Positions 38,171 through 41,608 of a stretch of DNA of 64,000 nt are shown in pieces. The stretch comes from Candidatus Saccharimonadota bacterium (lineage in GTDB: Bacteria > Patescibacteriota > Saccharimonadia > Saccharimonadales > Saccharimonadaceae): positions 124,001 through 188,000 of the forward strand of contig JAFWIU010000010.1 of the NCBI GenBank assembly GCA_017514765.1, given 5' to 3'. Position numbers and translations under genes: made by a program. Position 1 is the stretch's first letter, and each line of letters begins with the position of its first letter. The notes beneath the pieces are model-generated. The model did no database searches. It was not told the origin of the DNA and worked only from the letters and a program-made list of their open reading frames with translations.

Positions 38171-38482
38171 ATGAGTACATATGATGGTTTTAATGACAAG
38201 ACAATTGTAGTTGAAAAGCTCGGGAAATCTATTCTGAAGGTGTTCTTTGACCCAGCGATCTATGATGTTGGCTATATCGAGTTACTTTTGTTTACCGACC
38301 AGATTGCCAGACAAATTGCCTGGAGTGTGAGATTCGTTTCAAACGAAGAAGATTTTGAACGAGGAATAATGACTTTTGAGTGTAATCCGGCACGTCAACC
38401 TGGTAATTACTATTTGGATGATTATGCTGCAAAGGTTAAAGAATTCCTAAAACATCATTTGTTAGCTCATGCCACCTTGTGA
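38171..38482 (+). CDS. small unknown protein with strong promoter
   Basis: 103 residues, not recognised (FNDKTIVVEKLGKSILKVFFDPAIYDVGYIELLLF), acidic, cytoplasmic. GAGAGGGGGG ribosome site. The perfect consensus promoter suggests high expression. The stop codon lies in the loop of the terminator hairpin, so the last codons form its left arm. Confidence 0.68.
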   Translation: MSTYDGFNDKTIVVEKLGKSILKVFFDPAIYDVGYIELLLFTDQIARQIAWSVRFVSNEEDFERGIMTFECNPARQPGNYYLDDYAAKVKEFLKHHLLAHATL

Positions 38483-38497
38483 GGTGGCACTTTTTTT
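38469..38497 (+). terminator. terminator overlapping the stop of the 103-residue gene
   Basis: TGCCACC-TTGTGA-GGTGGCA followed by seven T. The TGA stop is in the loop. Confidence 0.85.
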
Positions 38498-38505
38498 GTT
38501 ATCAT
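38497..38505 (+). promoter_or_regulatory. extended -10 box (leaderless) after the terminator
   Basis: TGTTATCAT, 6 nt before the ATG at 38512. Confidence 0.55.
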
Positions 38506-38511
38506 ATTTTC

Positions 38512-39810
38512 ATGAGCAATGTTGAGGATTTAGCTATGCACAATTTAGATCGTAGCGAGCAGAAGGGTAAAAAAGATTTTGCCAGAGGACAAGTTGATCA
38601 GAAGATAGGAAGCACGTCTCTGGGGACCCGTAAGGAGTCGATAAAGAAACGTTTCGATGTCCTGAAAAAAGAAGGTTGGGGAAAGGTTTGGGGCGATAGA
38701 AAACTCCGACATGTAGCCGAGAGCGAAGAATACTATTCTTCAATCTCTGATTATGGGGATAATGCAAAAAATGCGGAGGTGCTTGAGGCTCTGACTAATT
38801 ACGGTGTTACTAGGCTCAGATGGCTAGGGAATTTCCCAATAAAAGAGCTTGGTGGGAAGGTTGATTTTCGAGCGATAAGTAATTCCACCAGGACATTTGA
38901 TGATTGGAGACATAGGATTGATTCAGTAGCAACTTTAGAAGTAAGTGGAAGGGTTAGGTCCAAGATTGGCTTAAAGAGTAATGTGGTCGAATTTGGAATT
39001 GATGCAACGACTTGGAAAAGGGATAATCGACTGCCCAGTCAGGAGGCAGAAGAAGAGGCAAGATTGTATTTTGCAGAGAAGATTTCAAGGTCCAATAATG
39101 AGAAGGATGGATTTCAACAGCCTGCACCATTTGGTTTTTCGCAGTTGGATTTTTACGTTCACCCCCGTAAAGACGAAACTGGGCAGTACAGGAAAGATAG
39201 GATTAAACTAATACCACGCTTTGTAATAGGCGTGAATGGAGAGATTGCTGATTCGATTCGACAATTTGATTTTCAGACAGACCATAATGGATTTTACCAG
39301 CCGAAGAGTGACAGTGTCATCTTAAACGACCCGAGAATTATCACTACGCAATTTAAGATTATTTCAGAGATCAATAAGCAATCAGAGATGTTAACGAGTA
39401 TGTTGCCGAACGACTACGCCAGTAATCCAGAATACGAGACAGCTAAGCGTAAATTGGATACCATAAGATATTTAACCAATGGCGCACTAAGAAAGAGTGC
39501 CGTAAGGGTTATAGAAGTTATGCGGAACAAAAAGATTTTACCAGAGGAGGTGGAAACGGAACTATATGGTAAAAACGACACCGAGAAAGCTGCGATTATC
39601 AGTAAAATGTTTAGGGATTCGAAGAGACGGGATGATGGGTTCTACTACGACCCAACATACGATGGGATTTTGAGTGCGGCGGAAAGATTTATCGAATGCT
39701 CGAGAGATGAAAACAGTGGTAGCAAATTGAGGGGTGTTCAGATCAGGAATATAGCTGTAATCTATGAGGGTGGGAAAATCAGGGAAATTCCTCAAAATGT
39801 AAAACTGTAA
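38512..39810 (+). CDS. unknown 432-residue protein
   Basis: Start ATG 38512 (the frame to 38479 crosses the terminator and -10 box). Not recognised. Highly charged N-terminus, no signal or membrane segment. Notable stretches: GVTRLRWLGNFPIKELGG, VVEFGIDATTWKRD, FGFSQLDFYVHPRKDETGQYRKDRIKLIPRFVIGVNGEI. Cytoplasmic. It lies in a patch of unknown genes without known relatives in the window. Confidence 0.65.
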   Translation: MSNVEDLAMHNLDRSEQKGKKDFARGQVDQKIGSTSLGTRKESIKKRFDVLKKEGWGKVWGDRKLRHVAESEEYYSSISDYGDNAKNAEVLEALTNYGVTRLRWLGNFPIKELGGKVDFRAISNSTRTFDDWRHRIDSVATLEVSGRVRSKIGLKSNVVEFGIDATTWKRDNRLPSQEAEEEARLYFAEKISRSNNEKDGFQQPAPFGFSQLDFYVHPRKDETGQYRKDRIKLIPRFVIGVNGEIADSIRQFDFQTDHNGFYQPKSDSVILNDPRIITTQFKIISEINKQSEMLTSMLPNDYASNPEYETAKRKLDTIRYLTNGALRKSAVRVIEVMRNKKILPEEVETELYGKNDTEKAAIISKMFRDSKRRDDGFYYDPTYDGILSAAERFIECSRDENSGSKLRGVQIRNIAVIYEGGKIREIPQNVKL

Positions 39811-39896
39811 TTTACAGATTCTGGAGTTCTTTACCTCTGTTAAGGATTTGTTTTGTCATACTGTGCAGTAGGTAATATTGACTATTTTACACGTTT

Positions 39897-39905
39897 ATGA
39901 TATAA
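39897..39905 (+). promoter_or_regulatory. extended -10 promoter of the sigma4/alpha-CTD-like gene
   Basis: TGATATAAT, giving a predicted leader of about 180-200 nt, by far the longest before a protein gene in this window. Confidence 0.6.
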
Positions 39906-39956
39906 TTATAACATAATCACTTATTGGGATTAATGTACTTTAACTTTGTTGGATTT

Positions 39957-40010
39957 TCTGATCGCAGAGTAGGTTTTCTACGTCTGTCGGAAACCTACCC
40001 TGCGATCAGA
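39957..40010 (+). promoter_or_regulatory. 54-nt leader hairpin
   Basis: TCTGATCGCAG (39957-39967) pairs with CTGCGATCAGA (40000-40010) and GTAGGTTT (39969-39976) with AAACCTAC (39991-39998), with a single mismatch between the two stems and a 14-nt loop. No T-run follows, so it is not a terminator. It could be a structured mRNA leader or, as DNA, a dyad operator for the gene's own product. Confidence 0.7.
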
Positions 40011-40110
40011 TACCTAAATATAAAGAGCGATAATGAAAGGACTCGCTTGGTAGGTTGTTTGGTCCTGCGGGGAAAACTGTCAATATTCAATGGAGGATTA
40101 TCTCAAAACT

Positions 40111-41061
40111 ATGAGTAAAGAATCTAGAAATATTTGTGGACCAGTCGATAGAACTCCTGGACAGAATCTCGCTACTGCAATCAGGAATACCTGGCAAGAT
40201 ATTGGTTTTCCGCCGTATAACTACGACAAGGTGTTAGCAATTCTGAACCAGGCTTTGACAACTGAAGAGGTAGATATCATATGTCGTGGTTTCGGTTTTA
40301 ACCATGTGCGCCAGCGACAGAGTGAGATCGCCAAGGATTTGAATATGGAGGAAAGATCTATATCTCCGATTCTCGCTAAGGCTGTTGACAAGCTGCAGGC
40401 TGCCTCCTACAGGAAACAATTCTACAAACTGATGATTACGCCTGACGAATTGTTTGCAAGGATAAGCGAGCTCGAGCAGGATGCTAAGTGCGCCAGAGAG
40501 CTGAAAGAAACGAAGCATCGCCTGCAAGCGGCAGAAAAGAGCAATGCTGAACTCACGGCCATGCTCAAAAAGTTGACCAATGAGAAGGCTGCACTTGTGG
40601 AAGACAATAAGCGACTGACTAGTAAGACCGATTATTTGGCAGAACGTGTCGCTAAGTCCAACGGCAAAATCGCTCAGCTGATTGATCTCGTGTCCTATCA
40701 CAAAGACAGGGAAAAACTGGTGAAAGATCACTTCGATATTTCCCTGGAGAGAATCAGCAAAAAGGTCAACAACGTAATCGCCAGGGAAGTCCATAGACTA
40801 ATCACTCAGGAAAGGATCGAATCTAAGAAAGAGCTTGTGGCAAAAGTGGCAACCCTCGACGTCGAGAAGACCGACGGTCTCAGGGAACTGGATATTCTGG
40901 AGGAATCCAGAGATAGATTACACAAGATCGGTATAAATAGTGTATCTATGCTGGTGACAATGTCGCGGCACAACCTCAGAAAAATGGGTGTGGACGCGGC
41001 AACCCTCACAGATGCCGAAGATGGCCTTAGCAAGATAGGTCTCTCGTTCCGCGCCAGTTAA
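40111..41061 (+). CDS. sigma region-4-like HTH / coiled-coil / RNAP alpha-CTD-like protein
   Basis: 316 residues from ATG 40111 (GGAGGA lies 14 nt upstream); ATG 40090 is an alternative (323). Numbering from 40090. Residues 57-104 (TTEEVDIICRGFGF..QSEIAKDLNMEERSISPILAKAVDKL) follow the sigma-70 region 4 pattern. 122-255 is a long coiled coil. 266-321 (LDILEESRDRLHKIGINSV .. LRKMGVDAATL .. GLSKIGLSFR) lines up without gaps with the RNAP alpha C-terminal domain, but the DNA-contact positions (Arg265, Asn268 and Lys298 in E. coli) are not kept. It may act as a transcription factor or RNAP-binding protein. Preceded by a large leader hairpin. I know of no named family with this order. Confidence 0.7.
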   Translation: MSKESRNICGPVDRTPGQNLATAIRNTWQDIGFPPYNYDKVLAILNQALTTEEVDIICRGFGFNHVRQRQSEIAKDLNMEERSISPILAKAVDKLQAASYRKQFYKLMITPDELFARISELEQDAKCARELKETKHRLQAAEKSNAELTAMLKKLTNEKAALVEDNKRLTSKTDYLAERVAKSNGKIAQLIDLVSYHKDREKLVKDHFDISLERISKKVNNVIAREVHRLITQERIESKKELVAKVATLDVEKTDGLRELDILEESRDRLHKIGINSVSMLVTMSRHNLRKMGVDAATLTDAEDGLSKIGLSFRAS

Positions 41062-41114: not shown

Positions 41115-41150
41115 AAAAAAATGCGGGTTCATTTACCCGCATTTTTCATT
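41115..41150 (+). terminator. terminator after the sigma4/alpha-CTD-like gene
   Basis: AAAATGCGGGT-TCATTT-ACCCGCATTTTT hairpin with T-run. Confidence 0.88.
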
Positions 41151-41198: not shown

Positions 41199-41522
41199 TT
41201 AACAAATGGATGCTTTCTGGGATTCAATCGCTGAATTGATTAACGATTCACTCATGTCACCGATAATATCCAGGACAAGGTAACGTGCATTAGTTGATGG
41301 ACAGCCTAAACGATCAATTAGATTCATTTGCAAAAGCTTAGTTTTAACTCTGGGGAGCATTTGGTTTGTACCAATATATGACAAGCAATTAGCTGCCAAA
41401 GTAAAAAAGGCTTCAGGGTCTTCCCAAGCGATTTGGCTAATCATGTCCAATGTTTCTGCATCAGTAGTATCGTCTATAGGCGGACCTTCTCTTGGTCCAT
41501 TTATTTTGATAATCTTACTCAT
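41199..41522 (-). CDS. small unknown helical protein
   Basis: 107 residues, not recognised: acidic start (INGPREGPPIDDTTDAETLDMISQIAWEDPEAFFTLAANCL), helical throughout, no signal. GGGGG ribosome site and a TGGTATAAT promoter (41571-41579, minus). The palindrome ATCTGC-TAA-GCAGAT at the predicted transcription start (about 41560-41572) is a possible operator. Confidence 0.62.
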   Translation of the reverse strand: MSKIIKINGPREGPPIDDTTDAETLDMISQIAWEDPEAFFTLAANCLSYIGTNQMLPRVKTKLLQMNLIDRLGCPSTNARYLVLDIIGDMSESLINSAIESQKASIC

Positions 41523-41608
41523 TGTTTCCCCCTTTTAAAAGTACTGCAGGTTTGCTCATCTGCTTAGCAGATTATACCATATAAACATAAGAAAGTCAAT
41601 ACTAATAA

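Follow-up and report, generated by a model that had tools for sequence, protein, structure and literature searches.

Within the window, by which we mean the whole 64,000-nucleotide stretch of Saccharibacteria DNA that was analysed, lies a gene for a protein whose two ends are homologous to sigma-70 region 4 and to the C-terminal domain of the RNA polymerase (RNAP) alpha subunit (alpha-CTD). We see about an even chance that this gene is the core of a movable Saccharibacteria cassette, encoding a transcription regulator that is derived from these two RNAP parts, is likely a coiled-coil dimer, has changed its specificity and is preceded by an RNA-structured leader. The host genome is 0.70 Mb in size and 99% complete. 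The features of the cassette are collected in Table 1.

Table 1. Positions of the cassette features in the window, with the evidence for each.
Feature	Position	Strand	Evidence or remark
Sigma70-type promoter of the regulator gene	39878-39906	+	Sequence (TTGACT, 17 bp, TATAAT)
P1, small 5'-terminal hairpin of the transcript (AATC...GATT)	39915-39931	+	Single-sequence folds
GTACTTTAA motif	39935-39943	+	Also found at other promoters in the genus
P2, long leader hairpin with compensatory changes	39957-40010	+	Covariation; covariance model R1
Regulator ORF	40090-41061	+	323 aa; sequence; dN/dS in close homologue pairs
N-terminal helical domain with sigma-70 region-4-like HTH	40126-40431	+	Pfam stretch 40255-40398; profiles, AlphaFold, Foldseek
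138-residue helix, predicted coiled coil	40441-40854	+	AlphaFold model
RNAP alpha-CTD-like domain without DNA-contact residues	40876-41049	+	Profiles, AlphaFold, Foldseek, residue table
Intrinsic-terminator-like hairpin 3' of the regulator gene	41116-41148	+	Sequence
Partner gene c1	41199-41522	-	107 aa, convergent, no known family
c1 promoter with 5' hairpin (41560-41570) and GTACTTTTAAA motif	41534-41599	-	Sequence

The regulator ORF exists where an earlier note on this DNA had placed it. Its start is likelier to be the ATG at 40111 than position 40090, because homologues, judged by their length, begin there and because a GGAGG (40092-40096) lies inside the longer reading given by that note, although the spacing of this GGAGG is not ideal. 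A single-protein search across 174 species of the genus found 12 family members including the window protein, and a profile search added three more divergent homologues, giving 15 loci and a patchy distribution (15/174). Homologues align with the window protein from end to end at 19-35% identity. Among the matches listed from the 394 sampled genomes of the taxonomic family, none outside the genus was full-length. In close pairs, dN/dS was ~0.1-0.2 (0.019/0.176, 0.038/0.199, 0.078/0.460 and 0.108/0.553); the protein is therefore maintained by purifying selection. The site is adjoined by a gene for a 443-aa protein of no assigned function (38479-39810), which has a homologue elsewhere in L015.

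The identity of the two ends emerged from the family more clearly than from the single sequence. Searched alone against Pfam, the window regulator matched Sigma70_r4 below the cut-off (E-value of 0.0014, 18.5 bits against 24.1) and gave no match to RNA_pol_A_CTD. Among 11 family members, Sigma70_r4 was significant in six (best E-value 2e-6) and RNA_pol_A_CTD in five (best 6e-6). A family profile queried against the PDB matched the RpoA alpha-CTD (1doq, E-value of 7e-9), the best 22 chains all being RpoA, and RpoD region 4 ranked after these with an E-value of 0.001. The same profile also matched the alpha-CTD region of RpoA-sized ORFs (~320 aa) in most of the 394 genomes. The AlphaFold model (mean pLDDT 87.5) consists of a helical N-domain (residues 13-114), a single helix (118-255) and a five-helix C-domain (263-315), in agreement with the ~130-residue coiled coil that had been proposed between the ends. 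As either end makes up just a short portion of the query, Foldseek matches of this model in the PDB had weak E-values (0.02-0.3), but their probability was ~1.0. Nearly all of the top matches were alpha-CTD (3gfk, 3k4g, 1lb2) or sigma region 4 (6onu, 1rio), the latter including a close fit to 1rio (TMt 0.85, rmsd 1.5). The argument for homology is carried by the consistency of these Foldseek identities with the sequence profiles.

Structure prediction of both ends had been set beforehand as a test, alongside a profile search for RpoA-CTD and sigma4. The former matched alpha-CTD and sigma4 structures, with no unrelated fold, and the latter returned both families. The proposal of a sigma4-like N-terminal and an alpha-CTD-like C-terminal end thus has family profiles, AlphaFold and Foldseek in agreement behind it, and chance resemblance to RNAP pieces is ruled out by the family profiles and the structure. 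Pfam and the model showed no sigma region 2, the middle of the protein being one long helix, and no alpha N-terminal (RNA_pol_L / A_bac) domain. PDB matches of the single regulator sequence to PEX14 and S17 were weak and fell largely in the helical middle. PADLOC matches to LmuB, JetC and DndD also fall in the helical middle, where we took them as coiled-coil similarity.

We next turn to the leader. Fourteen of the 15 homologues share its layout, which runs from a near-consensus promoter through a small 5' hairpin (present in most), a GTACNTTAA-type motif and P2 to a ribosome-binding site. The -35 and -10 elements are nearly invariant. P1 has differing yet complementary sequences at the equivalent place in several homologues, evidence that is weaker than that for P2. 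The motif recurs beyond the cassette: of 83 strong promoter-like sites, 23 are followed within 70 nt by G[TC]ACNTT[TA]A, against an expectation of ~0.6 and a count of 0 for the reversed motif. It was noticed at window positions 41534-41599 (-) and 39935-39943 (+) and in L015-L025 and L080-L094. The motif often follows a 5' hairpin, and by the rule of the script up to 15 of the 23 are not regulator leaders; it may be a genus-wide 5'-UTR element.

P2 comprises 23 base pairs, of which 19 are changed on both sides among 10 aligned leaders. In this alignment, 91% of cells are paired, compared to 34-44% in controls with slid partners, and none of 500 shuffles reached the observed scores, although relatedness inflates such tests. 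Cells with G-U outnumber those with A-C by 22:6 (binomial p=0.004, uncorrected for relatedness), which points to the sense RNA as the structured strand; both this count and the covariation come from related and hence non-independent sequences, which weighs against our preferred explanation. The covariance model R1, whose E-values are rough, found P2 at 14 of the 15 regulator loci in the 174 genomes, including four loci outside its training set (G159, G172, G100 and G062). P2 is missing in one homologue (L025), another point against the explanation that we favour. The single R1 match elsewhere, a weak one in G013 (E-value of 0.054), was set aside, as it precedes an unrelated 235-aa gene. No Rfam model exceeded its gathering score on the leader. 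Database loci with the same leader are titled Saccharibacteria, one of them from sheep duodenum. The match titled 'Bacteroidales' (L058, JAFWSX010000024.1) is an apparent chimeric contig in which a truncated Saccharibacteria regulator is joined to unrelated sequence.

A leader of this kind might work through the protein that it precedes. The regulator could bind its own P2 in the nascent or finished mRNA, through either the HTH or the helix-hairpin-helix end, and control translation or elongation as a feedback ribonucleoprotein, with the other end contacting RNAP. Consistent with this, P2 is tied to the regulator gene and not to the partner genes, and there is a single leader per genome, located directly upstream. 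Conversely, the GATYGCAG core of P2 is common to homologues whose HTH recognition residues differ, which speaks against such binding and likewise argues against the HTH reading P2 as DNA. In the predicted folds of the homologues, moreover, the leader did not pair consistently with the Shine-Dalgarno sequence (SD) or start codon, SD pairing probabilities being ~0.1-0.8. Overall, we consider a feedback ribonucleoprotein unlikely. Masking of the ribosome-binding site by the leader is unsupported by these folds and by the linker-SD duplexes of the six homologues with a linker motif, which were not stronger than mismatched pairs (-7.1 and -7.3 kcal/mol, respectively) in a test that is rough, as the L080 motif lies inside P2 and the starts of L016 and L018 are imprecise.

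Both ends of the regulator have changed where their RNAP counterparts touch promoter DNA. The alpha-CTD residues R265, N268 and K298, which contact UP elements, are replaced by E, D and A in the window regulator, as the earlier note had read. The -35-reading residues of sigma region 4 (R584/E585/Q589), which that note did not mention, are E, R and P. Its alpha-CTD alignment without gaps is nearly so; there is a one-residue deletion at N294 relative to E. coli. According to a residue table from which the misaligned sigma4 row of L099 was left out, and whose counts, like the covariation of P2, carry no phylogenetic correction, both sets of residues are lost in the window sub-family, which has the N294 deletion, and variable among its homologues. 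By its sequence, the window regulator is a diverged branch in which the promoter-contact residues of both domains have been lost. Because the -35-reading and UP-element residues are gone and vary among homologues, standard promoters are probably not what it recognises. Variable recognition residues could also reflect relaxed constraint rather than new specificity, which counts against the reading that we prefer.

A protein built of two RNAP pieces that have lost their DNA-reading residues might instead be a decoy, mimicking sigma4 and alpha-CTD and competing for the beta-flap, sigma or activators, and thereby silencing the transcription of foreign DNA or of the host, for instance as a protection from mobile elements. 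The patchy distribution would suit this, as would the resemblance of one partner, c23, to part of a TrbL/VirB6-like protein. As PADLOC matched the regulator to no defence family beyond coiled-coil similarity, we find a decoy rather improbable.

Each of the 15 regulator loci adjoins one small gene on the opposite strand: c1 in seven cases, c16 in six and c23 in two. The c1 genes lie tail-to-tail with the regulator, while c16 and c23 lie head-to-head. In the 174 genomes, strong c1 matches occur only beside the regulator, with two weak relatives elsewhere, and strong c16 matches in the genus are likewise confined to regulator loci. For c1 we found no Pfam family, no PADLOC match and no relative in a structure search. 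c23 had matches in 73 genomes, and in many of these the match, often a weak one, was to part of a ~1000-aa protein; one of these large proteins weakly resembles TrbL/VirB6 (E-value of 0.009). At L131:883-2967 (-), one stretch of a weakly TrbL/VirB6-like protein corresponds to what is a stand-alone c23 elsewhere. The possibility that c1, c16 and c23 form one divergent family was rejected on hhalign probabilities of <1% for the two pairs tested, from shallow alignments; judging from these, the three are apparently unrelated to one another.

The site of the cassette varies between genomes. In L015 it consists of exactly leader, regulator and c1, inserted between c5 and c6, whereas in L024 c5 and c6 abut and the cassette is upstream of c3. 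In several genomes, the c16-type cassette is flanked by a fusA-like and a tuf-like gene. The cassette was therefore gained or moved at several sites. This sporadic distribution over differing sites, and the constant pairing with exchangeable small genes, would also be expected of an addiction or conflict module of two genes, with the small partner as toxin or antitoxin and the regulator controlling its transcription. We doubt this strongly: the partners are oppositely oriented and, where examined, have their own promoters, and c1 has neither a family match nor a structural relative. We hold it to be just as doubtful that P2 is a DNA palindrome, such as an operator or recombination site, for while the inverted repeat adjoins the gene of an HTH protein, it pairs at 23 positions with double changes and a G-U excess in the sense strand, its loop length differs widely among homologues and it always lies between promoter and start codon.

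This leaves the cassette built around a regulator with changed specificity as our preferred explanation, and what is established about alpha-CTD and sigma region 4 allows its mechanism to be sketched. Two copies of the regulator would most likely pair through the 138-residue helix, so that one end of the dimer would carry a pair of sigma4-type HTHs and the opposite end a pair of alpha-CTD-type domains. The domain content suggests that it acts on transcription. The HTH may bind a cassette-specific DNA site or RNAP itself, and the alpha-CTD-like domain may dock on RNAP or sigma. Likely targets of the regulator are its own transcript and the one from the small partner gene, while P2 would act as RNA in the 5' UTR, tuning the expression of the regulator. 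More tentatively, the whole could represent an undescribed RNA-protein cassette, in which a protein derived from the promoter machinery no longer reads promoter DNA, works with the covarying hairpin of its own leader and controls one of several exchangeable partner genes.

In the open-access literature, a scope that leaves most subscription journals outside, we found no description of the regulator sub-family or its leader, and the cassette of RNA and partner gene appears undescribed. How Saccharibacteria, with their reduced genomes, control transcription is little known. A two-module regulator that has split from paralogues retaining the contact residues gives direct access to the question of how parts of RNAP come to serve as regulators. 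The leader is a testable RNA element, and the same literature yielded no described leader of the kind of P2 for the phylum.

Structured autoregulatory leaders are a known general kind, which P2 resembles as a hairpin that covaries and belongs to the 5' UTR of a single gene family. It differs in having no Rfam family and in that the gene downstream is neither ribosomal nor metabolic. The regulator shares fold and sequence family with the RpoA C-terminal domain and RpoD region 4 at its respective ends. Unlike RpoA and RpoD, it has no alpha N-terminal domain and no sigma regions 2-3, and its contact residues are lost. Matches to the alpha-CTD on a C. difficile 'plasmid' proved to be an ordinary rpoA within a ribosomal-protein operon. 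In the host assembly itself (G000), RNA_pol_L had no match and no rpoA-sized gene matched the alpha-CTD, probably because of an assembly gap.

The earlier note knew of no described family with this domain order, a claim that did not hold. The order of sigma4 followed by alpha-CTD, with both domains above the Pfam cut-offs, is found in a 231-aa paralogue in the same genome (G000:C6, ~72.3-73.0 kb; L014:1012-1707), which keeps the promoter-contact residues. The same holds for further Saccharibacteria (L084, L090, L091 and L110) and for a gut phage contig (MT837876). The MT837876 protein has a full-length relative on a second gut phage contig (MT835636). These phage proteins have sigma4, linker and alpha-CTD as in the window regulator; they differ from it in an extra N-terminal HTH_17, scored by Pfam in MT837876 and assigned to MT835636 by similarity. 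We saw no relation between them and the Saccharibacteria cassette, and one regulator homologue searched against phage records gave no match. A 636-aa protein at L092:5306-7216 combines two alpha-CTD stretches, sigma4 and a weak HARE-HTH match.

The closest comparison is with the paralogues of the same genome and genus (222-344 aa), which carry both homologous domains in the same order (PF04545 then PF03118). Most of them keep R265/N268/G296/K298 and the TRERIRQ helix that reads the -35 element, L084 and L090 only in part, whereas the window regulator does not, and R1 found no P2-type leader at their loci. The order of the two domains is thus not new. The unusual features are the diverged sub-family and the covarying leader and partner genes that accompany it.
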